The position numbers were made by a program, and so were the translations under genes. The notes under the pieces were generated by a model. It worked only from the letters and a program-made list of their open reading frames with translations. It was not told where the DNA came from and ran no database searches. This document shows, in pieces, positions 176 through 12,719 of a DNA stretch of 41,654 nucleotides; position 1 is the stretch's first letter, and the number at the start of each line of letters is the position of its first letter. This DNA is from Saprospiraceae bacterium. GTDB lineage: Bacteria > Bacteroidota > Bacteroidia > Chitinophagales > Saprospiraceae. Where the stretch lies: positions 1-41,654 of the forward strand of contig JAHDCZ010000016.1 in assembly GCA_020629615.1 (NCBI GenBank). The letters run 5' to 3'.

Positions 176-982
176 TTACTTCATTTCAGATACTTTGACC
201 ATCATATCCTCCACATGATAGACCATTTCTGTATATCTAGGGTCTCGTTTGGTCAATCGATTACGTTCTAGTGGTAAGTCTACTGCAATGTGTTCGACAA
301 ACTGAGAAGGTGCTGATTTCATGATGTAAATATCATCAGCCAGGTACACCGCCTCTGAAATATCGTGAGTGACAAATATGATCGTCGATTGAAATTTATT
401 CCAAATATCTGCTAACAAATCCTGGACTTGCAATCTTGTTTTAATGTCCAAAGCTCCAAATGGTTCGTCCATTAACAGAATCTCAGGATTGGCCAATAGA
501 CTTCTTGCAATAGCCACTCTTTGTAATTGTCCCCCAGAGAGTGTTGGGTATTGTGCATATTTTTTTTCGTGACCATCCAATCCGACCATTTTGATTAGTT
601 CCATCGCTCGATCATCTCGTTCACTTTTAGAAATACCTTGATAGCGCAGAGCCAATCCTACATTGTCCAGTACACTCATCCAGGGCAAACTAGAATACTG
701 CTGAAAAACCATACTAATCCTACTTGATTTGTCAATAGGTTTTCCTTTGATAATGACTTGTCCCTGAGTAGGTTCTTGAAGACCCGCAATATATCTTAGT
801 AGCGTAGATTTACCGCAGCCAGACATTCCAAGAATCACCACAAACTGACCTTGAGCAGGTTTGTCTTCTATTAAAAAATCTAGGTCCTTGATGATCCAAT
901 TCGCACCTGCATCATAGGACTGTCCAATACCTCTAAGTTCAATAATATTGTCCTGAGTAACTTTGTCTTCAAATTTAATCAT
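176..982 (-). CDS. ABC transporter ATP-binding protein (SsuB/TauB-like)
   Basis: ATPase subunit of an importer of the nitrate/sulfonate/taurine type. From the chosen start (268 aa) the Walker A motif GMSGCGKST lies near residues 52-60. It is followed by a Q-loop (VFQQYSSLPW), the ABC signature LSGGQLQRVAIARS, Walker B (ILLMDEPFGALD) and the H-loop (FVTHD), so all catalytic motifs are intact. ATG at 982 overlaps the end of the permease gene by 8 nt, which suggests translational coupling. An upstream in-frame ATG at 1006 would add 8 residues and is less likely. It is the last gene of the six-gene minus-strand block. The family suggests import of a small organic anion, but the substrate cannot be read from this subunit. 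Confidence 0.92.
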   Translation of the reverse strand: MIKFEDKVTQDNIIELRGIGQSYDAGANWIIKDLDFLIEDKPAQGQFVVILGMSGCGKSTLLRYIAGLQEPTQGQVIIKGKPIDKSSRISMVFQQYSSLPWMSVLDNVGLALRYQGISKSERDDRAMELIKMVGLDGHEKKYAQYPTLSGGQLQRVAIARSLLANPEILLMDEPFGALDIKTRLQVQDLLADIWNKFQSTIIFVTHDISEAVYLADDIYIMKSAPSQFVEHIAVDLPLERNRLTKRDPRYTEMVYHVEDMMVKVSEMK

Positions 983-2054
983 CGCTTGCAGTTTTTGAAG
1001 GTACATTCAATCGTTGACCATTTGATTTGATGACGCAATAAATCAAATAAGAAATTGTCACTAAAGCAATAAAATGGATGACCCAAACGGTATCTTCGAA
1101 TAAATACGAAAGCGGTTTTATTCCTCCTAAAAAATTGAATGATTCATTCGCCGCAAGGCAGACATAGATCGCAACAAAAGCCCAGGTAAAGACCGTCATA
1201 GCATAGGAAGAAATGTTGTCCCAAAGGTTGTTTTCATCCACCTTTGCATATTTATTTTTGTTCTGAAACTTGTGAGGGAAGAATTTTTTATCGAGATAAA
1301 CAAAAAAACGATCTTGAAGGAATCCGATTAGGATGAAGATTAATAGGATGGCAATTGTTTTATCGGGTCGTCCCATTCTTTGACCTACCCGATAAATTAA
1401 GGCTCCCAATCCACCTTGATCTCCAATCTGCTCCGCGACAATGATGTAAGTCCATGAGATCGCCGTCAACACTCTGATGTCATCAGATAATTTTGATAAC
1501 ACTGAAGGGATATAAACAGTTTTGATCGTTTGCCAATCGGTAGCACCTAAGGTATATACCGTTTTGAGGTACACATCCTGAACCTCTATGATCCGTTGAA
1601 CAATCACAGGTATGAGATAAATCATAATCCCAAATGCCAGAAAGTTAACCTTGATGGCCGTTTGAATCCCAAAAGCAGCAATAAATATTCCCGTTACAGC
1701 AGTCAGAGGTACAAAACGAAATGCAATGACTTGATCTTGGAACAATCCTTTGAAAAGTGGGTATAAGCCAATTAAAAAGCCAACAGGTAGAGAGATTAAA
1801 AGTGCTTTGACGTATCCGCCTAAATTAAAGCCGATAGACATGCATAAATTTTTGACCAATTTATTTTCAGAAATTAATTCACTATAGGCGGCAAAAGTTT
1901 TGGCTGGACTGGACATGATTCCAGCTTTCAAAATCGGATCTTCTCCCATGGTTACCAAATGCCAAATAAGTAGAGTGATCAATAGTCCAATAATTCCAAG
2001 CGTAGCGCGTTGAATCGTGTTTAAAGGCCCTTGTAATTTGAACATCCAGGACAT
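975..2054 (-). CDS. ABC transporter permease with extra C-terminal membrane hairpin
   Basis: Inner-membrane permease of the BPD_transp_1 (SsuC/TauC) type, 359 aa. The normal core has an N-terminal membrane helix (about 18-34), several further helices, and the EAA-type cytoplasmic loop that docks the ATPase (LGATDWQTIKTVYIPSVL, about 169-186). In family members the chain usually ends soon after a segment like FVYLDKKFFPHKF (about 251-263). Here about 95 further residues follow: a charged linker, two more predicted membrane helices (about 283-302 and 322-342) and a polar tail. The gene sits between the fused substrate-binding/OmpA gene and the ATPase gene. The extension may contact the PspA-like or OmpA-fused partners, but that is inference. 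Confidence 0.9.
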   Translation of the reverse strand: MSWMFKLQGPLNTIQRATLGIIGLLITLLIWHLVTMGEDPILKAGIMSSPAKTFAAYSELISENKLVKNLCMSIGFNLGGYVKALLISLPVGFLIGLYPLFKGLFQDQVIAFRFVPLTAVTGIFIAAFGIQTAIKVNFLAFGIMIYLIPVIVQRIIEVQDVYLKTVYTLGATDWQTIKTVYIPSVLSKLSDDIRVLTAISWTYIIVAEQIGDQGGLGALIYRVGQRMGRPDKTIAILLIFILIGFLQDRFFVYLDKKFFPHKFQNKNKYAKVDENNLWDNISSYAMTVFTWAFVAIYVCLAANESFNFLGGIKPLSYLFEDTVWVIHFIALVTISYLIYCVIKSNGQRLNVPSKTASDD

Positions 2055-2131
2055 GGAGAATGGTGACTATTTATTGATCATAAAAAAAGAATGAAATATG
2101 GATTGAACACAAAGTCCAATCCATTTATGTT

Positions 2132-3766
2132 TTATCCTGCGATTAGCTGAAATTCTGTTCGTCTATTTTTTGCTTTACAAGCATCTGTTGCATTAGTTTC
2201 ACAACCTTTGGTAGGCTTATCAGGACCATTTCCAACGATGACAAATCGATTTGGATTCATACTATATTCTTGTTGAAGATATCTCGCAACAGACTGTGCT
2301 CTCTTTTCAGAAAGTGACATATTCATTGCTCTATTTCCAACGTTATCCGTATTTCCTTCAACTCGGACTTTTACATTACCAAATGTTTTGGCAACATCGG
2401 CAAATTGTAAATCAATAATGGTTTTGGCATTTTCAGATAATTGAAACTCTCCTGTGTTGAAATTGATGCTGACGGGTTTGGTTGCAAATGCTGGAGCCGT
2501 TTTTTCGGCACTGGTTGCAGGTTTAAAGACCTTGCTCTTTTCAGCAGCATAGCCGGCACCATTCATTTGAGGCATACTTTGAATCGCTGTAGTATTGATC
2601 ACAGATCTCCAAGTCGGACCCACATTTTCAGAATCACCAGTTTCAACAAACTTACGATTCATCTTATTAAACAAATCAGAACCTTTTTGTCCAGAATAAG
2701 ATTTATTAAGACCAAAGAAATTGACGTTATCTTCATGCGAAGTCCAGTAAACATTCTCCATCATTCCTAAGGCGTCTTCTACCGCTAGGTCATTGATTTC
2801 TGCCAAGTATTTGGCCGCTTTTTGTTTGTTGGCAGGATTTTTTAATTCGGCAACACCTTTCATCCATCCTTCATAAAATCCCTTGAACATTTCTTTTTTC
2901 TCTTGTAAAACAGATTCTTTTGCCAACATGATATCGGCAATTATGTGAGATTGTTCTCTTGTAGTCAGAAGGATTTTAGAGCCTTTAACATCTCTTGTGG
3001 CAATCACATCATCTGGACTCCAAACAACAGCAGCATCTACGTCATTTGAACGGAATAATTCTGCTGCTTTTAGATTGTCAGAAGTTTTAACCACTTTGAC
3101 ATCGCTATAACTGAGACCTGCTGCTTCGAGTGAACTAATCAAAAGCGTCTGAGCGGGAGAAGGAACGGCGACTGCAATCGTTTTACCCTTCAAATCGTTA
3201 ACGGTATTAATGCCTCTCTTTACAATGATGGCATCACCACCTCTTGACCAATCCACCTGAATAAATGCTTTGGGTCCATAGGCATTTAAGTCGGCAGGAG
3301 CGGTATATAGAGGAAAAGCATCGGCGGTTTGAACAATGACATCATACTCATCGGCAATCCATGCATTCATTGCATTGATCAAGTCATTTTCGACTTTAAA
3401 GTCAACCTTAAATCCGTAATCTTTATAGAAACGACTATTAGAATTGGCCGCGCCTCCTTCATTAAAATATAAACCTGGAGCATAACCACCCCAAGTAACC
3501 AATTGTACTCTTAGCGTGTTGTCATTTTTATCTCTTGGTTTAGAAGGTGTATTACTGTTCTGTTGTGAAGTTGAATTTCCCGAATTCACATCTTTGGTAT
3601 TGTTTTCAGAACTGGCTTTTTGCTCCTGTGCAGCAGATTCAGCTTGATCTTTTAAGTTTTGACCAAATGAAGTGTTATTTAACAGATATTTCCCACCTAA
3701 GAATAAGAGTGCGAGAATTAATAAAGTGATTAAAAGTTTTGAAAATGAAGTTAATCGTCTTGCCAT
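2132..3766 (-). CDS. ABC substrate-binding protein fused to OmpA domain
   Basis: 544-aa fusion. Residues 11-29 form one membrane helix with no obvious signal-peptidase or lipobox site, so it probably stays anchored in the inner membrane. A Ser/Asn/Gln/Lys-rich linker follows (about 35-83), then an NMT1/SsuA-type periplasmic binding domain (about 85-375; for example VQLVTWGGYAPGLYFNEGG and DLKGKTIAVAVPSPAQTLL). Residues 433-544 are an OmpA-like peptidoglycan-binding domain with NTDNVGN (D474), LSEKRAQSVARYL and KNRRTEF (R535/R536). Cys522 and Cys530 could form the disulfide seen in some OmpA domains. The protein could hold the transporter against the cell wall. Annotation pipelines often call such fusions phosphate-binding, but nothing here shows phosphate specificity. 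The permease and ATPase genes follow directly. Confidence 0.88.
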   Translation of the reverse strand: MARRLTSFSKLLITLLILALLFLGGKYLLNNTSFGQNLKDQAESAAQEQKASSENNTKDVNSGNSTSQQNSNTPSKPRDKNDNTLRVQLVTWGGYAPGLYFNEGGAANSNSRFYKDYGFKVDFKVENDLINAMNAWIADEYDVIVQTADAFPLYTAPADLNAYGPKAFIQVDWSRGGDAIIVKRGINTVNDLKGKTIAVAVPSPAQTLLISSLEAAGLSYSDVKVVKTSDNLKAAELFRSNDVDAAVVWSPDDVIATRDVKGSKILLTTREQSHIIADIMLAKESVLQEKKEMFKGFYEGWMKGVAELKNPANKQKAAKYLAEINDLAVEDALGMMENVYWTSHEDNVNFFGLNKSYSGQKGSDLFNKMNRKFVETGDSENVGPTWRSVINTTAIQSMPQMNGAGYAAEKSKVFKPATSAEKTAPAFATKPVSINFNTGEFQLSENAKTIIDLQFADVAKTFGNVKVRVEGNTDNVGNRAMNMSLSEKRAQSVARYLQQEYSMNPNRFVIVGNGPDKPTKGCETNATDACKAKNRRTEFQLIAG

Positions 3767-3808
3767 TTTTATAGATTGGTTTATGTGTTAATCAAAGTTT
3801 CCATTAGA

Positions 3809-4828
3809 CTAATCAAAGAAATTGTCGTATTGGTTCCCACGACCCATTTTTTCTGGTGTTTTCATGGGTTGATTTAAATCAAGTACATCAGAATCATTAT
3901 TCGCTTGATCTAATAAATCGAGCTTAGCTTCACCCAAAAGTAGTGAGTCACCCTCAGCCTCCCATTTCTCTAACATTCTTAGTCCTTCTTCCTCGAAAAT
4001 CCCGTTTTGGAGGTCTACCGATTTCATGAAACTATCAGACATTTCCATGAATCGTTCCATTTCTCCTACTTTCTGACTAACATCGTCGGCTACTGCTTCA
4101 AGCGCTCTATCAAATATTTGTTTTTTATCCGGATCGCCTTTAATGACGCTCATGGCCGATTTCATCGCCGAATGACTGGCCATAATGGCTTTTCTTTCCT
4201 GTTCTTTGACCATAACTTGGTCTTGAATATCTTCCATCATGATCGAAGAATTTTCATACATTTTCGAAAGAACACGATAGAGTACCTCCATCTTACGGTA
4301 TAAATCTTCTAATTTTAAGTTGGATTCTTTTAATCGACCCGCTTTTCGGCTTTTTAAAATCATTTCTGATTTTTTATTGTTGTCTCTAGCCTGACCAGCC
4401 ATTTGAAGGTTTTCTTTAATATCACGTTGGTTGTTGAGAATCATTTCTTTGAGCTTATGCATTTGCCCACGAAGTTGACCGACTTGACGGTTCATCTTTT
4501 TAAGGTTTCCTTTTAAGTCATCGATATAACTTTTAAGAATACCTATCGGATCAATTTGAATAAACAAACCAGTAATCCAACGCATCGTACTTTTGTACAT
4601 GTACCCGATTAGATTACGCATTTTCGAATCAAGAGCCATATAGATAATAGCTCCCAATACAAGCAAAATACTTACCAGTCCGATTGTAGAAGAGAGGGCT
4701 GCAAAAATGGAAGAAATGAAGGCATTGACAAGTAAAGCACCCCCTACGATGATACCTCCCAAGACTATTCCGCCGACAAGTCCTTCTGGTTTTTGCCAAA
4801 AAGACTTTGGTTTATAGTTTTTTCCCAT
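3809..4828 (-). CDS. Membrane-anchored PspA-like coiled-coil protein
   Basis: 339 aa from ATG 4828; the open frame continues to a TTG at 4909, but those 27 codons look like leader. Two adjacent hydrophobic helices (about 17-38, Gly-rich, and 46-65) form a hairpin. A long, almost uninterrupted charged helical region follows (about 92-290) and then an acidic Asp/Asn-rich tail. The helical part, beginning IDPIGILKSYIDDLKGNLKKM, has the size and pattern of PspA/IM30 (ESCRT-III-like) proteins, which bind and remodel stressed membranes. No residue motif proves this, so the assignment rests on pattern only. The gene is 42 nt upstream of the substrate-binding/OmpA fusion gene. A structure prediction would settle the fold. 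Confidence 0.6.
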   Translation of the reverse strand: MGKNYKPKSFWQKPEGLVGGIVLGGIIVGGALLVNAFISSIFAALSSTIGLVSILLVLGAIIYMALDSKMRNLIGYMYKSTMRWITGLFIQIDPIGILKSYIDDLKGNLKKMNRQVGQLRGQMHKLKEMILNNQRDIKENLQMAGQARDNNKKSEMILKSRKAGRLKESNLKLEDLYRKMEVLYRVLSKMYENSSIMMEDIQDQVMVKEQERKAIMASHSAMKSAMSVIKGDPDKKQIFDRALEAVADDVSQKVGEMERFMEMSDSFMKSVDLQNGIFEEEGLRMLEKWEAEGDSLLLGEAKLDLLDQANNDSDVLDLNQPMKTPEKMGRGNQYDNFFD

Positions 4829-4983
4829 TGATTCGTTTATTCTAAATTTGCTCAAATATACCAAAGCTTCAACAAAAGCAGGTCGCTTTGCGTTGCAAGC
4901 TTTCGACAAATCCGAATATATTATTGACGAATTGAGATAAGGACTAAGATCTTTGGAAATCCAATCTCGAAGGAATTAGAATC

Positions 4984-5283
4984 TTAAGCCACTTTACGTT
5001 TAGATTTTTTTTCTTTCTTTGGCTTGATTTCCTCAATTTCTTCAATTTCTTCAAGATCAATTATGATATCTTCTTTGTACATCTTTTGAGCTTCGGTTCG
5101 CGTCATTTTTATGAGGTAATGATAATCATTGGTTTCGTAAGGAAATGCAGAGGTCAATTTACCATTTGGGTCAGAAAAGGTAATGAGGTGCTTATCAAAT
5201 CCATATGGATATTCCGATTTGATTTGTTCCAACAACTCGATCGGGAGTTTGTCGTAACTTTTGATAACTCTTGGTTTGTTCAT
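4984..5283 (-). CDS. Conserved small hypothetical protein, acidic then basic tail
   Basis: 99 aa. The N-terminal about 70 residues look like a small globular domain (PRVIKSYDKLPIELLEQIK, then a segment containing LITFSDPNGKLTSAFPYE and YLIKMTRTEAQKMY). The end is a Glu/Ile-rich stretch followed by a Lys-rich tail. I recall similar short proteins in many Bacteroidota with no assigned function, and I do not assign one. It is probably cytoplasmic, having no signal peptide or membrane helix. It is separated by 155 nt from the PspA-like gene downstream and by 330 nt from the coiled-coil gene upstream, so it may have its own promoter. Confidence 0.7.
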   Translation of the reverse strand: MNKPRVIKSYDKLPIELLEQIKSEYPYGFDKHLITFSDPNGKLTSAFPYETNDYHYLIKMTRTEAQKMYKEDIIIDLEEIEEIEEIKPKKEKKSKRKVA

Positions 5284-5613
5284 TGTGTATAGGATTTATT
5301 AATAAAAAGCTTAATTCGTTTGTGTAAAAGCGTCTTATTATCATCTACGCACAGGCTGGTTTCTGAACAATTAAGTCGTAAAGTAAATTTAGAAAGCCCA
5401 TATATGCAAAACATATTAGGTTTTTTTTTAATTTATTAGGTCAAAATGGATAAAATCAGGGTTTTCCCTAGTGATTTGATGACTTTTAATGCAATTGGAG
5501 GGATGTTTTAACCCGGATTATTCATTAGAACTCCGTTAGGAGACTTGAAAGGATAATAAAATATGAAGATTTGTTTTTCGCTTTCGCGAATGAGCATGTA
5601 CTAGTGGTATAAA
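5284..5613. other. Intergenic region with hairpin repeat
   Basis: This 330-nt stretch between two minus-strand genes has no convincing coding sequence. It contains an AT-rich tract (about 5412-5445), a short CTCC-GTTA-GGAG hairpin near 5530 and the TTTC-loop hairpin repeat at 5574-5596. A promoter for the 99-aa gene is likely within it, but no clear TTG / TAnnTTTG pair was found. Confidence 0.5.
5574..5596 (+). repeat. TTTC-loop hairpin repeat, copy 1
   Basis: TTCGC (5577-5581), loop TTTC, GCGAA (5586-5590), then TGAG. On the other strand the loop is a GAAA tetraloop. It matches 9965-9987 in 20 of 23 positions, and two of the differences are a C-G to G-C swap on opposite sides of the stem. 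It lies downstream of the 223-aa coiled-coil gene and lacks a T-tract. Confidence 0.65.
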
Positions 5614-6285
5614 CTACTTCAAATAGCTTTTCATATTCTTAACATCTTTTTCAATTTGACCAACGACCAATTGATAAGCTACTTGAAAATTTCGATTGGT
5701 CGCTTCAACTTTTGAAGCCGCTTGGTGAATACCTCCTTTGATTTTTTCTAAAGACTTTTTATGCTGTTCTATTTCTGACTTAAGCGTTTCAATTTGTTTT
5801 TGTTTTTTAAGGATAAGGGCTTCTGAATCTTTGATTTCTTGCTCTTTGCCAGTGATTTGACGATCTTTTTGATTTTTTAGGGCCTGATTAAATTTACTTT
5901 GCTCTTGTTGTAAAACCTTTAAGTAATGATCTGCACTTTGAATTAGTTTAGACGGAGTGGCTCCCATTGTTTTCGCCATGGCAAAAGCACTTTGATATTT
6001 GGTTTGCTCGTTCATTTCCATTTTTGACAAGGACTGAAGAGACTGTTTGTACTCTAAATAATCAAATCCATCTAGGTTGTTGGCCTCGATCGCTTTCATT
6101 AAAACATCAACAAATTTGCCATCTACCTTCTTATTAGAAAGATCAATCTTCACTTGAGCTGGTGGAGTGGAGGATGTTGATTTTGATGGAGCAGATTGCT
6201 TGGTGGCTTCTGGTTGAGGCGTACTTTTTTTGGCGTTTGGATCTTCTTCAAAGAAAAGCCCTTTTATTTTATCAAACATGCTCAT
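5614..6285 (-). CDS. Coiled-coil protein of unknown function, first gene of ABC/PspA-like block
   Basis: 223 aa, without signal peptide or membrane helix, so probably cytoplasmic or peripheral at the membrane. Residues 1-12 may form a short amphipathic helix. A Pro/Ser/Thr/Lys-rich linker follows (about 17-45), then a helical domain (KFVDVLMKAIEANNLDGFDY and SAFAMAKTMGATPSKLI) and a long charged coiled coil (about 115-200). I do not recognise an enzymatic motif. Its strand and position at the head of the block suggest it acts with the PspA-like protein. It is transcribed divergently from the thioesterase gene at 6388, and the 102-nt gap probably holds both promoters. A second start (Met3) is equally possible. 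Confidence 0.75.
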   Translation of the reverse strand: MSMFDKIKGLFFEEDPNAKKSTPQPEATKQSAPSKSTSSTPPAQVKIDLSNKKVDGKFVDVLMKAIEANNLDGFDYLEYKQSLQSLSKMEMNEQTKYQSAFAMAKTMGATPSKLIQSADHYLKVLQQEQSKFNQALKNQKDRQITGKEQEIKDSEALILKKQKQIETLKSEIEQHKKSLEKIKGGIHQAASKVEATNRNFQVAYQLVVGQIEKDVKNMKSYLK

Positions 6286-6387: not shown

Positions 6388-6798
6388 ATGTACGAGCATC
6401 GATTTAAGAAAAGAGTAAGATATGGCGAAACCGATCAGATGGGGTACCTCTATTATGGAAACTATCCTATGTATTATGAGATCGGTCGTACTGAAATGAT
6501 TCGGGATCTAGTCATGCCGTATGCAGAATTAGAACGAAAGTATGGTCTGATGATGCCCGTGATGTTTTTGGAATCCAAATACCTTTTACCAGCCAAATAC
6601 GATGATCATTTAACCATCGTGACCAAGATCAGGGAAATGCCAGGAAAACTCATTTCTTTTCATCACGAAATTGTAAACGAGGAAGAAAAAGTAATTAATA
6701 AGGGCTTGACAAAATTGTTTTTTGTAGATATGAAAACGAATCGCCGAGTTTCCACGCCAGATTTTATTATCAATCCATTAAAAGCTTTTTTTAATTGA
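6388..6798 (+). CDS. Acyl-CoA thioesterase, 4HBT/YbgC family
   Basis: 136-aa single hot-dog domain, the usual length for YbgC-type acyl-CoA thioesterases, which hydrolyse acyl-CoA thioesters in the cytoplasm. The N-terminal motif RYGETDQMGYLYYGNYPMYYEIGRTE carries the family's active-site Asp in the D-Q-M-G context and the Y..N/E helix; the rest follows the family pattern up to the FFVDMKTNRRV strand. The stop codon overlaps the TTG start of the YihY gene by 3 nt, indicating an operon. Confidence 0.9.
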   Translation: MYEHRFKKRVRYGETDQMGYLYYGNYPMYYEIGRTEMIRDLVMPYAELERKYGLMMPVMFLESKYLLPAKYDDHLTIVTKIREMPGKLISFHHEIVNEEEKVINKGLTKLFFVDMKTNRRVSTPDFIINPLKAFFN

Positions 6799-7730
6799 GT
6801 ATACTCGAAAAAATAAAGTCCTTACCGATCGTAAGTGAGATTGTTCGTTTATCTAAAAGGTATTCTTTTCCGGGATTCAGAGGAGTACCCATATATAATG
6901 TCATTGACTTTATTTATCAAGAGTTGCAGAAAGAAAATTTGACTATGCGAGCTAATGCTGCGGCGTATAACTTTTTTCTTTCACTTTTTCCAACCATTAT
7001 TTTTTTCTTCACATTGTTGCCATTATTGCCTTTTACGGCAAGCTATGAGGAAATATTAGAAAATTCGATGCGTGAGTTTTTACCGGAAGATGCTCACCAG
7101 TATTTGTTTGAAATTGTGCATGGGATACTGGGTATAAAGCGAGAGGGATTGTTGTCGATTGGATTTTTCTTGGCTCTTATATTTTCTTCAAGTGGTATGC
7201 TTACGCTCATGGATGGATTTGATAAATCCTATGCACTCACCTTTAAACAAAGAAGCTGGGTACGGAAAAGAGTCATTTCAGTTGTATTAACTGCGCTCTT
7301 GGCGGGATTAATGATGGCTTCCTTGGTATTGATTATATTGGGCGGGCAGATATTGGGGAGCTTATTTGATTATTTCGAACTAGGAAAGTACACTACTTTT
7401 AGTTTTTTAATCTTGCGATGGGTGGTGGTCATCCTTCTATTTTATTTGGTCATTACGACAATTTATCGCTATGGTCCCTCCCTTAAAAGAAAGATAAGAT
7501 TTATTAATCCTGGCGCTACATTGGCGACCTTTTTGTCCATTGTTAGTTCATTATTGTTTGCTTATTTTGTAAACAACTTTGGTCGATATAACGAATTGTA
7601 TGGATCGATTGGAGCATTAATTGTATTGTTAATTTGGATGCAGATAAATGCTTTTATCCTCATTGCTGGATTTGAGTTGAATGCGAGTATTGCTGTAAAT
7701 AAAGATTTAATTCGAGCACAAAAAGAATAA
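6795..7730 (+). CDS. YihY/BrkB family inner-membrane protein
   Basis: 311-aa integral membrane protein with about six helices. It has the family's N-terminal pattern (FRGVPIYNVIDFIYQEL, then TMRANAAAYNFFLSLFPTIIFFFTLLP) and the C-terminal half containing YRYGPSLKRKIRFINPGA and GSIGALIVLLIWMQINAFILIAGFELN. The start is TTG at 6795, overlapping the thioesterase stop; the first ATG, about 50 codons in, would remove conserved residues, so TTG is preferred. The molecular function of the family is unresolved, although it was once mislabelled as ribonuclease BN. The transglutaminase gene follows after 3 nt. Confidence 0.88.
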   Translation: MSILEKIKSLPIVSEIVRLSKRYSFPGFRGVPIYNVIDFIYQELQKENLTMRANAAAYNFFLSLFPTIIFFFTLLPLLPFTASYEEILENSMREFLPEDAHQYLFEIVHGILGIKREGLLSIGFFLALIFSSSGMLTLMDGFDKSYALTFKQRSWVRKRVISVVLTALLAGLMMASLVLIILGGQILGSLFDYFELGKYTTFSFLILRWVVVILLFYLVITTIYRYGPSLKRKIRFINPGATLATFLSIVSSLLFAYFVNNFGRYNELYGSIGALIVLLIWMQINAFILIAGFELNASIAVNKDLIRAQKE

Positions 7731-7733
7731 AAT

Positions 7734-8693
7734 ATGAAAATCAAATTCCTCTCTTTGCTTTTGTTGTTGACTTTTACATTCGGCTACAGCCAAAATTATA
7801 GTGCTATAGACCAACATGCGATTGCTGTGAAATATACCAAAGATTATAAGAAAGCAACCCAGGATTTAATCGCTCCATATACTGATGAAACTTCCAAGGC
7901 TCGGGCGATATTCACTTGGATCGCAGAAAACATTTCTTATGATACCAAAATGAGGGATCGCTTTAAGAAAGAGGGAAAAAAAGGGTATACCAAATATCAA
8001 TATCGAAATGAAGCAGAGAAGAAACAAAAAGAGAAAGAACATCAAGATGGATTGGTCAAAAAAGTACTGAAAAGGAAAAAAGGAGTATGTCAAGATTATG
8101 CACTTTTATATCGCTCAATGTGTGAAGAGGCCGGACTAGAATGTCAATTTGTAACTGGTTTTGGGCGGTTTTCACCGAATAATATTGGAAAGGAACATAA
8201 AGGGTCCAATCATGCATGGAATGCCGTCAAGATTGATGGGAAATGGGAGTTAATGGATGTAACGTGGTCCACTGGAATGGGCGCAGACGAGGATTACGGA
8301 AATGGTTTTTTTATGGTAAAGCCGGAGGCATTCATTATGTCTCATCGACCAGATGATGATCAATGGCAATTGCTTGAAAAACCACTGAGTATCAAAGAAT
8401 TTGCGGATCAAGCTTTTCCTTATTTTGGTTTCATAAAATACAATGCACGATCTTTTGAACCAAGTAGCGGTAAGGTTTTGAGTAAAGGAAAAGTTACCAT
8501 TGATCTTGATATCGAGCCAGGGCAGCAGCTTTATCTTATCCGTAAAAAAACACCTCTAAAATTGAAGGCAGTACAGGAAGGAACGAAATATACCTTTGAT
8601 CTTTCTCAAAAGTCTCTTCGTGGGAATATTATTATTGGTGTCAGTAGTGGACGAAGTATTCAGCCCGTGGTGGGATTTAAGGTGAAGGCCTAG
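7734..8693 (+). CDS. Secreted transglutaminase-like domain protein
   Basis: 319 aa with a signal peptide (MKIKFLSLLLLLTFTFGYSQ). The transglutaminase/protease-like core carries the triad: Cys in KGVCQDYALLYRSMCEEAG (about residue 119), His in NHAWNAVKIDGKWELM, and Asp in MDVTW. A C-terminal domain of about 90 residues follows. Such proteins in Bacteroidota are periplasmic or surface cysteine enzymes acting on peptides or protein cross-links; the substrate is unknown. The gene is directly downstream of the YihY gene and converges on ubiX with a 4-nt overlap of the ends. Confidence 0.85.
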   Translation: MKIKFLSLLLLLTFTFGYSQNYSAIDQHAIAVKYTKDYKKATQDLIAPYTDETSKARAIFTWIAENISYDTKMRDRFKKEGKKGYTKYQYRNEAEKKQKEKEHQDGLVKKVLKRKKGVCQDYALLYRSMCEEAGLECQFVTGFGRFSPNNIGKEHKGSNHAWNAVKIDGKWELMDVTWSTGMGADEDYGNGFFMVKPEAFIMSHRPDDDQWQLLEKPLSIKEFADQAFPYFGFIKYNARSFEPSSGKVLSKGKVTIDLDIEPGQQLYLIRKKTPLKLKAVQEGTKYTFDLSQKSLRGNIIIGVSSGRSIQPVVGFKVKA

Positions 8694-9250
8694 CCGTCCC
8701 CCCAGCGAAAAGATGAAACATCCAAATCAGCGAGATCAAGCACGCGATGTACCACTGTTTCTGCCAATTGTTCTAAGGTTTTTGGATTGGAATAAAAAGA
8801 AGGGCTGGCAGGACAAATGATTCCTCCTGCTTCTGTAATAGTCGTCATATTTCGTAAATGGATTAGATTAAACGGAGCCTCGCGTGGCACAACAATGAGT
8901 CTTCGACGTTCCTTGAGAATAACATCTGCAGCTCTTGTCATTAAATCATCTGAAATCCCTGAAGCAATTCGTCCAACGATTCCCATGGAGCAGGGACAAA
9001 TGATCATGGTATCGTACTTTGCTGATCCAGATGCAAAACCTGCATTGAAATCTCGTTTTCCATAAAACTCAAAAGGCCAATCTTCTTTTTTGAATTCTCC
9101 AATTTCTAATTCCCAATTGACAATCGCATTTTCGGACATGACAATACCGACTTTCAGTTGTTCTTTAGGAAAATTTTGCAATTGTTCCATTAGAAGTTTT
9201 GCGTACAGCGCTCCTGAAGAACCACCAATTCCAAGAACAATTTTTCTCAT
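8690..9250 (-). CDS. ubiX: Flavin prenyltransferase UbiX
   Basis: 186 aa, the full length of UbiX, which prenylates FMN with dimethylallyl phosphate to make the cofactor of UbiD decarboxylases. The flavin-binding N-terminus (GIGGSSGALYAKLLMEQL), the CPCSMGIVGRIASGISDDLMTRAADV segment and the RRRLIVVPREAPFNLIHLRNM / GGIICPASPSFY segments are characteristic. No ubiD lies in this window, so the client enzyme is encoded elsewhere. The folC gene lies upstream on the same strand with a 54-nt gap. Confidence 0.94.
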   Translation of the reverse strand: MRKIVLGIGGSSGALYAKLLMEQLQNFPKEQLKVGIVMSENAIVNWELEIGEFKKEDWPFEFYGKRDFNAGFASGSAKYDTMIICPCSMGIVGRIASGISDDLMTRAADVILKERRRLIVVPREAPFNLIHLRNMTTITEAGGIICPASPSFYSNPKTLEQLAETVVHRVLDLADLDVSSFRWGDG

Positions 9251-10912: not shown

Positions 10913-11734
10913 ATGAGACAATTCTTTATTATACTCGTTCTCTTGATATGGTTTCTACTAGGCTGGTGCTATTATCAAAACACCTTAAGTTGCTGTGCTG
11001 TTGCCGAAACCTCCGAAGCCGTCGAAGCGGTGGAAGAAAAACCGGTTGTCGCAGCTGTTGTTGAAAAGTCGCGCCCACTCCTCTATGCATGGTCTGCTGA
11101 AAAGTCGATTTATGGCGATGGATGGAATGCCTATCGAGATTCTATAGTTCGAGGACATAACGAGAATAATCGACTTCAGATTACAGGGTATTACCGATCA
11201 GATGAAGTCAATAACACCACATTTGAAAATTTAGGTTTGGCAAGGGCTAATGATGTGAGCAAACAATTTGCAGGTAAAATTGATTCTGCCAATATCAGCT
11301 TGATGGGTAAGTTAACTGATGAACTGGATGGTCAACGAACCACAAAATTCGAATCTGCAGATTTCAGATATTTGGTCAATTCTGCCAATGTTAAAGAAGT
11401 GGACGACAAAGCCTTGATTTATTTTCCTTACAATTCTACAAGAAAGCGAAATGCTGCGGATGTAGAATCGTATCTGGACGATGTGGCTGAGAGAGTCAAA
11501 AAATCTGGTGAAAGCGTAAGGCTAGTCGGTCATACCGATTCATTGGGTGATAATGCTTCAAACCAACGATTGGGATTAATGCGTGCTAATGTGATTAAAG
11601 AGTATTTGATGAGCAAAGGAGTAACGGCTTCAAAAATTTCTACTAGTTCTAAAGGAGAAATGCAACCAATCGATAACAATAATACAAATGCAGGTCGTGC
11701 TAAAAATAGACGAACTGAACTTTTCATCAACTAA
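10913..11734 (+). CDS. OmpA family protein with degenerate second OmpA-like half
   Basis: 273 aa. Residues 4-20 are a membrane anchor or signal sequence. An Ala/Glu/Val-rich linker follows. Residues 165-273 are a standard OmpA peptidoglycan-binding domain (IYFPYNSTRKR, LVGHTDSLGDNASNQRLGLMRA, GRAKNRRTEL), with Asp209 and Arg266/267 in the expected places. Residues about 56-140 (RLQITGYYRSDE, then LGLARANDVSKQFAGK) look like an older, decayed copy of the same fold without the NRR motif. The product probably sits in the periplasm bound to the wall. The gene is 13 nt upstream of the helix-hairpin-helix gene, so the two are very likely co-expressed. Confidence 0.88.
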   Translation: MRQFFIILVLLIWFLLGWCYYQNTLSCCAVAETSEAVEAVEEKPVVAAVVEKSRPLLYAWSAEKSIYGDGWNAYRDSIVRGHNENNRLQITGYYRSDEVNNTTFENLGLARANDVSKQFAGKIDSANISLMGKLTDELDGQRTTKFESADFRYLVNSANVKEVDDKALIYFPYNSTRKRNAADVESYLDDVAERVKKSGESVRLVGHTDSLGDNASNQRLGLMRANVIKEYLMSKGVTASKISTSSKGEMQPIDNNNTNAGRAKNRRTELFIN

Positions 11735-11747
11735 AAATTAACAAACA

Positions 11748-12719
11748 ATGGTACTCAATATATTAACAAATTTTTGCGACTGGTGGTGGTTAGCTTGGTT
11801 ACTACCTTTTCTACTTGGTCTTTTGTTGGGATGGTTATTGTGGGCGAGATATAAAGGAATGGTAGCTGAATTGGAAAGTGAGGTTTCTCGGCTCAAAGCA
11901 CGGATTAAAGATCTTGAAGATCAATTGGCAAAATGTAAAGCTGGAAGAGCCGAATTGGAAAGTGATATTGCGCGTTTAAAAGGACAGCTAAGAGAAATGG
12001 AATTGGCAGCTAGAGCCTCAGCCAAAGTTTCGACTCCATCTGTGAGTGCAGCTAGTTCTTTTGTAGCAACCCCTACTCCAGATCCAACACCAGCTCCAGC
12101 GCCTCAAAAAAGTAGCGTCTCAGCAGACAAGTTTGCAGCTTTGAAAGCAGATAATCTTCAGGTTGTGGAAGGAATTGGTCCTAAAATGGAGTCAGTATTA
12201 AAAGATAATGGAGTCAATACATGGTCTTCCTTGGCCTCCAAATCTTCGGATGATGTCAAAGGGATATTAGGAAAATATGGAGACAAGTATAGAATCATCG
12301 ATCCTACCACTTGGCCTAGTCAAGCCAAATTGGCAAGAGATGGCAAATGGGATGAGTTGATTGATGTTCAGAAAAATTTGGATACCGGAAGGTCGGACAA
12401 AGCAACGGGCTTAACAGATTCCAAAGTAGAAAAGATCATGATCAAATTGGGCATTTTAAAGCGATGGAAGGAAAATGATCTCAAGGCGGTAGAAGGGATT
12501 GGCCCTAAAATTGCTGGTTTGTTGAACGCGGACGGGATCACCACTTGGAGAGCACTGTCGGAAACCAGTGTTGAAAGAATCCAAGGTATTTTGAATGCTG
12601 CTGGAAAGCGATATCAACTCGCGGACCCAACAACCTGGCCTAAGCAGGCAGGAATGGCTGCCGATGGAAAATGGGATGAGCTAAGTGCCTATCAGGATGA
12701 ATTGAACGGCGGAAGATAA
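11748..12719 (+). CDS. Membrane-anchored coiled-coil protein with two helix-hairpin-helix repeats
   Basis: 323 aa. Trp-rich membrane helix (about 11-33, with WWWLAWLLPFLLGLLLGWLLW), coiled coil (about 37-90), Pro/Ala/Thr linker (about 95-122), then two homologous units of about 79 residues (137-215 and 245-323). Each unit starts with (V/A)VEGIGPK, a helix-hairpin-helix-like turn similar to DUF4332-type domains, and ends with DPTTWP.QA..A.DGKWDEL. Such hairpins often bind nucleic acid, but a membrane-anchored copy next to an OmpA protein may have another role. Its partner is the upstream OmpA protein. A strong terminator follows at 12820. Confidence 0.8.
   Translation: MVLNILTNFCDWWWLAWLLPFLLGLLLGWLLWARYKGMVAELESEVSRLKARIKDLEDQLAKCKAGRAELESDIARLKGQLREMELAARASAKVSTPSVSAASSFVATPTPDPTPAPAPQKSSVSADKFAALKADNLQVVEGIGPKMESVLKDNGVNTWSSLASKSSDDVKGILGKYGDKYRIIDPTTWPSQAKLARDGKWDELIDVQKNLDTGRSDKATGLTDSKVEKIMIKLGILKRWKENDLKAVEGIGPKIAGLLNADGITTWRALSETSVERIQGILNAAGKRYQLADPTTWPKQAGMAADGKWDELSAYQDELNGGR

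Follow-up and report, generated by a model that had tools for sequence, protein, structure and literature searches.

Does a PspA-like membrane protein cooperate with an importer that is tethered to the cell wall, or do the respective genes merely travel together? This question is posed by a locus in a Saprospiraceae bacterium (assembly GCA_020629615.1, contig JAHDCZ010000016.1; the 41,654 nt of DNA analyzed are hereafter called the window), in which all six predicted minus-strand open reading frames (ORFs) were found within positions 176-6285. In the upstream to downstream order, these ORFs encode a coiled-coil protein (CC), a protein of 99 amino acids (aa), a PspA/Vipp1-like protein (PSPL), a binding protein with a membrane anchor and an OmpA domain (SBPO), a permease (PERM) and an ABC ATPase (ATP). 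The reading toward which we incline, with confidence and doubt about evenly balanced, is that the products of the locus form a TauABC-type importer, the binding protein of which is tethered to the wall, and that this importer is organized by a membrane-anchored PspA-like scaffold.

Conservation of the gene set

Five of the six genes form a conserved set. Genomes were scanned for SBPO with short exact patterns, a procedure that is biased toward close relatives and yielded 51 loci. SBPO is a close ortholog in 50 of these, which come mostly from Saprospiraceae, and otherwise from Lewinellaceae, Aureispira or genomes with higher-level Bacteroidota names; in the 51st locus, from Campylobacteraceae, the SBPO match shows 28% identity over 145 residues, with the OmpA part unmatched. 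Across the 50-locus set, the PSPL gene is located directly upstream of the SBPO gene, on the same strand, in all 47 loci with room for it, the gaps between the two genes ranging from 17 to 828 nt with the median of 37. PERM is present in 45 of the 48, and ATP in 43 of the 46 loci with room; CC lies within 6 kb in 41 of 46, some of the CC genes being several kilobases upstream, with other genes intervening.

The original prediction that the neighbors are conserved together holds for these five genes but not for the gene of the 99-aa protein (4984..5283, minus strand). It is missing from all 50 loci and, among 60 relatives, adjoins PSPL in no genome other than G000 and G001; copies of this family occur in 14 of the 60 relatives and, apart from the two genomes just named, reside on other contigs. 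The gene is a local insertion outside the conserved set. Its product had also been described as acidic, but contains 19 K/R and 19 D/E residues, with the net charge of approximately zero.

Of the same 60 relatives, 36 were found to encode PSPL and 24 to encode SBPO (E<1e-100). The two genes are adjacent in 22 of these 24 genomes; PSPL is cut by the contig edge in one of the others (G013, where 35 PSPL residues are left at the contig end) and is encoded elsewhere in the genome in the second (G037). Wherever the DNA allowed a look, no close SBPO ortholog without PSPL was seen. The 50-locus set and the 60-relative set share genomes, and therefore, the counts obtained from the two are not independent.

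Several observations weigh against a firm bond between the importer and PSPL. CC is absent from 5 of the 46 loci, and PERM and ATP do not adjoin SBPO in 3 of the 48; where PERM is missing locally (L032, L047 and L053), the respective genome encodes an ortholog elsewhere. Of the 36 relatives with PSPL, 13 lack a full SBPO; these include near-complete genomes, as well as G028, which has an SBPO fragment at the end of a contig. PSPL is thus not dependent on the importer. A permease ortholog without a detectable SBPO was found in G029, an assembly of 1,040 contigs, and distant SBP-OmpA proteins on Vibrio plasmids, considered below, occur without PSPL. In the examined loci that lack SBPO, CC is located beside PSPL in 17 of 23 cases (12 of 13 for L072-L077 and L079-L085, and 5 of 10, including one contig-edge fragment, for the rest). 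In favor of the bond, 12 of the 16 genomes chosen for this comparison have the permease ortholog, and the four that do not (G002, G009, G012 and G015) lack SBPO too. In a tree of 41 PSPL rows, the linkage to SBPO is clustered (6 changes versus the shuffled mean of 11.9) and does not define one clade; the linkage labels were set by hand, with L009 labeled unlinked though its contig ends there.

The occurrence of PSPL without the importer in 13 of the 36 relatives, along with importer parts that are unlinked in a few genomes, is compatible with a plain TauABC-like nutrient importer, the genes of which merely travel with a PspA-like gene, with no functional coupling between the two. The invariable adjacency of PSPL and SBPO in 47 loci, and the recurrence of a similar gene order in another family, speak against this explanation. 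The properties of the importer itself bear on it as well.

The importer

SBPO (2132..3766, minus strand; 544 aa) consists of a hydrophobic anchor (residues 4-31), an NMT1/TauA-like binding domain (∼85-380; NMT1, 43.2 bits with the cut-off of 20.5) and an OmpA domain (436-526; 63.3 bits, cut-off 27.2). PERM (975..2054, minus strand; 359 aa) is a TauC/SsuC-type permease (BPD_transp_1, 45.9 bits, cut-off 26.4), in which the Pfam domain ends at residue 258 and is followed by two extra hydrophobic stretches, 281-303 and 321-344. ATP (176..982, minus strand) is a TauB/SsuB-type ABC ATPase (ABC_tran, 111.3 bits, cut-off 25). The ATP ORF opens at 1006, but the gene probably starts at 982, inside the end of PERM (8-nt overlap), which gives 268 aa instead of the 276 aa of the ORF; the median length of ATP among the relatives is also 268 aa. 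The domains called in the original prediction are all over the Pfam cut-offs, and the predicted SBPO anchor and permease hairpin are seen in the hydropathy profiles. CC, PSPL and the 99-aa protein have no Pfam match over the cut-off.

The closest solved binding protein to the SBPO domain is the taurine-binding TauA. No substrate-specific NCBIfam model scores over its cut-off (SaoA, 207 with the cut-off of 360; SaoP, 92.6 with 295; TIGR03427, 89.1 with 333.9); the best NCBIfam matches of ATP are SaoA/TauB, both under the cut-offs. In 13 aligned sequences, including the Vibrio plasmid copies that are only 23-25% identical to SBPO, no variation is seen at W92, S174, G176, D178 and R489, and almost none at D474. 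D474 and R489 are the wall-binding residues of the OmpA domain, a role known from the A. baumannii OmpA work, and the other four belong to the binding domain. SBPO appears to be attached to the inner membrane as well as the cell wall: an uncleaved N-terminal helix would anchor it in the former and the OmpA domain would bind peptidoglycan, so that it would work in the layer between them.

The locus shares the binding-protein, permease and ATPase families with the TauABC/SsuABC importers, and differs from these in that the binding protein is apparently held to the membrane and the wall, a combination of an anchor and an OmpA domain that is not the usual TauA design. Judging from sequence conservation, the invariant residues of the binding domain and the likeness to TauA would fit real solute uptake just as well as any more elaborate role. 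With all three transporter parts over the general Pfam cut-offs, these features suit a plain nutrient importer, but its unusual anatomy and the constant company of PSPL do not, and we regard this explanation as somewhat unlikely.

Relationship of PSPL to the PspA family

PSPL (3809..4828, minus strand; 339 aa when read from the ATG at position 4828) has a predicted N-terminal membrane hairpin, apparent in hydropathy as two overlapping hydrophobic stretches at 14-70, a core that is predicted to form a helical hairpin (94-149 and 153-225 in the AlphaFold2 model), and a conserved C-terminal tail. The window protein ends with NQYDNFFD; 37 of 38 rows share the motif Y-x-x-(F/L/M)-F close to the C-terminus, with YxxLLD in the three most diverged ones. 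A free amphipathic helix alpha0 was not recognized at the N-terminus, where hydrophobic stretches precede the core, and we therefore call the protein PspA-like and not PspA.

The original prediction of a PspA-like protein was borne out in part: the predicted fold is compatible with PspA/Vipp1, but BAR domains fit equally well and the window protein itself has no match to the Pfam PspA_IM30 family (cut-off 33.9 bits). In a Foldseek search with the model, which has a middling mean pLDDT of 70, the top match in the Protein Data Bank (PDB) is Vipp1 (7o3w; probability 1.00, with a weak E-value of 0.06), with nothing at E 0.001 or better; the first 50 matches include more Vipp1, PspA and Asgard ESCRT-III chains, mixed with many unrelated long-helix chains. 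Structural alignment superimposes the model on Vipp1 (8qhx) over 137 residues at 1.8 A with Z 9.7, model residue 93 falling on Vipp1 residue 24, and on PspA (4whe) over 122 residues at 2.3 A with Z of ∼10, in the range where, according to the warning of the aligner (Z below ∼13), the score may mean little for long helices.

The relatives of the window protein provide sequence signals. Among the eight relatives scanned, PspA_IM30 matches, all below the cut-off, were obtained for L099 (29.0 bits, E ∼1e-6), L100 (30.5 bits, E 4e-7), L077 (18.6 bits, E 0.0015) and L102 (17.3 bits, E 0.004), the last of which has 63% identity with PSPL of the window. A shared DP motif aligns identically in the four matches, its D (D93 in the window protein) being placed at position 23 of the profile. 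The PSPL profile was searched against 296 evenly sampled Bacteroidota genomes and matched nine, six from Saprospiraceae and three others of the same class; in a genome-wide search, PSPL was recovered as a PspA_IM30 match in three of these nine (33.1, 29.6 and 19.6 bits).

Other results point in the opposite direction. The remaining four relatives scanned (L098, L080, L081 and L082) have no PspA_IM30 match, nor does PSPL in six of the nine genomes. BAR domains reach Z 11-12, compared with ∼10 for Vipp1. Profile comparison with hhalign of a 13-row PSPL alignment and an 18-sequence PspA alignment, which does place DP on DP, gives P 0.014 and the probability of 3%, and no usable result came from the same comparison when alignment A1 or only E. 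coli PspA was employed; a search of the PDB sequences with the PSPL alignment profile retrieved no PspA, Vipp1 or Snf7. PSPL could, accordingly, be an unrelated membrane-hairpin coiled coil and not a relative of PspA/ESCRT-III, an explanation that would also accommodate the mediocre model. It would not readily account for the exact agreement in register among the Pfam matches of the four relatives, the hhalign comparison and the structural alignment with Vipp1, and we consider it clearly unlikely. Because these weak signals agree in one register, PSPL likely shares ancestry with PspA; a PspA fold is plausible but falls short of proof, and for the window protein, the link to PspA rests on the relatives and the predicted fold.

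Two copies of PSPL are found in 27 of 37 Saprospiraceae genomes. The second copy in the genome that contains the window is accompanied by a shorter CC only (L072). A paralog in G029 (L114:208-3379, plus strand) is followed by genes for an SPFH/Band_7 protein (E 1e-78, with a SHOCT tail) and a zinc-ribbon protein. No such SPFH gene was found at E 1e-5 in the other loci, many of which have short flanks. This setting resembles the company of PspA in Bacillus subtilis, where YdjG carries a zinc ribbon, which is another point against an unrelated coiled coil.

The coiled-coil protein

CC (5614..6285, minus strand; 223 aa) is a soluble protein that is conserved in the relatives and consists of a conserved basic-hydrophobic N-terminus (MSMFDKIKGLFF), a low-complexity linker, a small helical domain (56-110) and a 110-residue helix (111-221) in the AlphaFold2 model, which has the mean pLDDT of 87. 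There is no convincing fold match in the PDB, and the PDB sequence matches are generic coiled coils. We call the N-terminus basic-hydrophobic only, because its hydrophobic moment is not above that of shuffles of the same residues; its identification as an amphipathic helix was dropped. An hhalign comparison places 11 N-terminal residues of CC on the N-terminus of PspA (P 0.006, probability 6%), which we treat as a hint only.

Distant loci and a regulatory connection

Two loci from another family, L099 and L100, have a similar five-gene order; they come from two of the three genomes outside Saprospiraceae that the PSPL profile matched in the 296-genome sample. Compared with the window, PSPL in these loci is ∼26% identical, ATP 31-32% and PERM 27%, and SBPO aligns through the OmpA part only. 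The CC genes of the two loci were assigned by their place and by 58% mutual identity, the window CC matching the one in L100 only (E 1e-6). The binding domain of L099 scores 17.8 bits against NMT1, under the cut-off of 20.5, and therefore appears much diverged. In L099 (14506-18834, plus strand), the ATPase gene is followed by a sigma-54 response regulator gene and, farther on, a gene for a PAS/HAMP histidine kinase; no such pair follows the ATPase gene among the ORFs listed for L100. In E. coli, pspF adjoins pspA, and PspF is a sigma-54 activator.

This arrangement is relevant to the possibility that the locus encodes a mechanical device in which the wall-tethered SBPO would signal to the permease how far the membrane is from the wall, or how strong the tension is, and a PspA-like polymer would respond. 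Such a role would match the anatomy of SBPO, with an anchor, a linker, the binding domain, another linker and the peptidoglycan domain in succession, and the action of PspA proteins in envelope stress, as described in excerpts from the literature; the regulator and kinase genes of L099, next to the E. coli precedent, point the same way. However, the importer is dispensable for PSPL, and the regulator pair was found in L099 only, whereas a scan of eight conserved flanking proteins from the loci of close relatives revealed no regulator; we hold a device of this kind to be very unlikely.

In L098, from the third of these genomes, the gene that comes after CC and PSPL encodes a protein (7830-8897, minus strand) that has an SBPO-like N-terminal anchor and a different outer domain. 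This protein shows a sub-cut-off match to the exopolyphosphatase model TIGR03706 (E 0.007), contains a DIGSGNTK stretch and has no sequence match in the PDB; on these sequence features, the outer domain may adopt an actin-like/Ppx fold.

Outside Bacteroidota, the searches covered plasmid records and the Campylobacteraceae locus. Two Vibrio plasmids, NZ_AP019851.1 (L104:7399-17498) and NZ_AP025146.1 (L105, with the gene content taken from the annotation only), share one operon that encodes an ABC ATPase, two binding/OmpA proteins (in one of which OmpA is under the cut-off), a VWA protein, a helical protein with a membrane hairpin, TelA, a urea-type binding protein and a permease. TelA occupies the place that the PspA-like gene has in the window. 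Kinship of the 257-aa hairpin protein with PSPL, and of TelA with CC, was considered and found to be unsupported.

Flanking genes

The eight conserved flanking proteins scanned are FKBP, MeaB, M23, arginine deiminase (twice), thioesterase, BrkB and TPR; there is no AAA+ remodeling ATPase among them. Divergently oriented genes upstream of the locus in the window (6388-7730, plus strand) encode thioesterase-like and YihY/BrkB-type proteins, as suggested by the likeness of the translations, and, of the examined loci, 17 and 16, respectively, contain ORF clusters of these types. Farther away (10913-12719, plus strand), an OmpA-like protein adjoins a coiled-coil protein in which the C-terminal part contains two repeats that resemble each other, as judged from the translations.

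Comparison with known systems

As the original prediction anticipated, similar neighborhoods are already present in a comparative survey. Excerpts from Ravi et al. 2024 (PMC11237479) describe operons of PspA or TM-Snf7 with an AAA+ ATPase, an ABC ATPase, a permease and PBPB-OmpA (example, OGG56892.1), so the kind of operon is known, and the lineage analyzed here may already be included in Table S3 of that work. The window and those operons have in common an ABC ATPase, a permease, a binding/OmpA fusion and a transmembrane PspA/Snf7-like protein in one operon. The window type differs in the lack of a classical AAA+ gene among the matches listed nearby, in the presence of CC in most loci and in the extra hairpin of the permease. 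What we rate as distinct here is the membrane-hairpin PspA-like protein, usually accompanied by CC, with no classical AAA+ gene among the matches listed nearby. Among the titles and abstract openings considered, no other description of this transporter set was recognized.

In 16 genomes, no PF00004 match at the E limit of 1e-8 was found within 15 kb of SBPO among the matches listed, some of the contigs being short; the nearest one listed is at ∼20 kb, in G006. The sigma-54 activator of L099 is an AAA+ protein by fold (PF00004, 25.1 bits), too weak for this limit, but is a transcription regulator. Under a bolder reading, to which we give the least credence, SBPO and an ESCRT-III-like polymer would form one trans-envelope machine that mechanically couples import with inner-membrane remodeling, the ABC ATPase serving as the energy source in place of an AAA+ disassembly ATPase.

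Three other systems offer partial parallels. A Bacteroidetes PspA/Snf7/coiled-coil neighborhood in the excerpts from Ravi et al. (PMC11237479; CBH24266.1) resembles the window in that a PspA-like gene adjoins a coiled-coil gene, but contains two PspA-like genes, compared with one in the window. In B. subtilis, according to excerpts from PMC8581546, PspA is recruited to the membrane by YdjI and YdjG/H; the PspA-YdjG-YdjH-YdjI system is similar in having a PspA-type protein at the membrane and in the SPFH and zinc-ribbon genes seen at the paralog locus L114, whereas PSPL of the window has a built-in membrane part and its locus lacks an SPFH gene. Loci of the ESCRT type in methanogens, which contain SPFH and ProX genes (excerpts from PMC10936438), also combine an ESCRT-III-type gene with a transporter binding-protein gene but are archaeal, include the Vps4 ATPase and, within those excerpts, come with no mention of an OmpA fusion.

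Biological implications

Returning to the reading of a scaffolded, wall-tethered importer, PSPL, having its own membrane hairpin, would always be at the inner membrane. Assembly of its helical hairpin would probably take place on the cytoplasmic side, in many cases with CC as a soluble partner. PSPL is likely to be a membrane scaffold that would cluster or stabilize the importer, presumably through direct contact; alternatively, it might allow the importer activity to govern PspA-like membrane maintenance.

The lineage is a compact, strongly conserved case of a PspA-like protein with a built-in anchor, usually with CC, that in many genomes adjoins a wall-tethered importer. PspA over the cut-off was found in none of the six Saprospiraceae genomes of the 296-genome sample, and PSPL may stand in for canonical PspA in this family.

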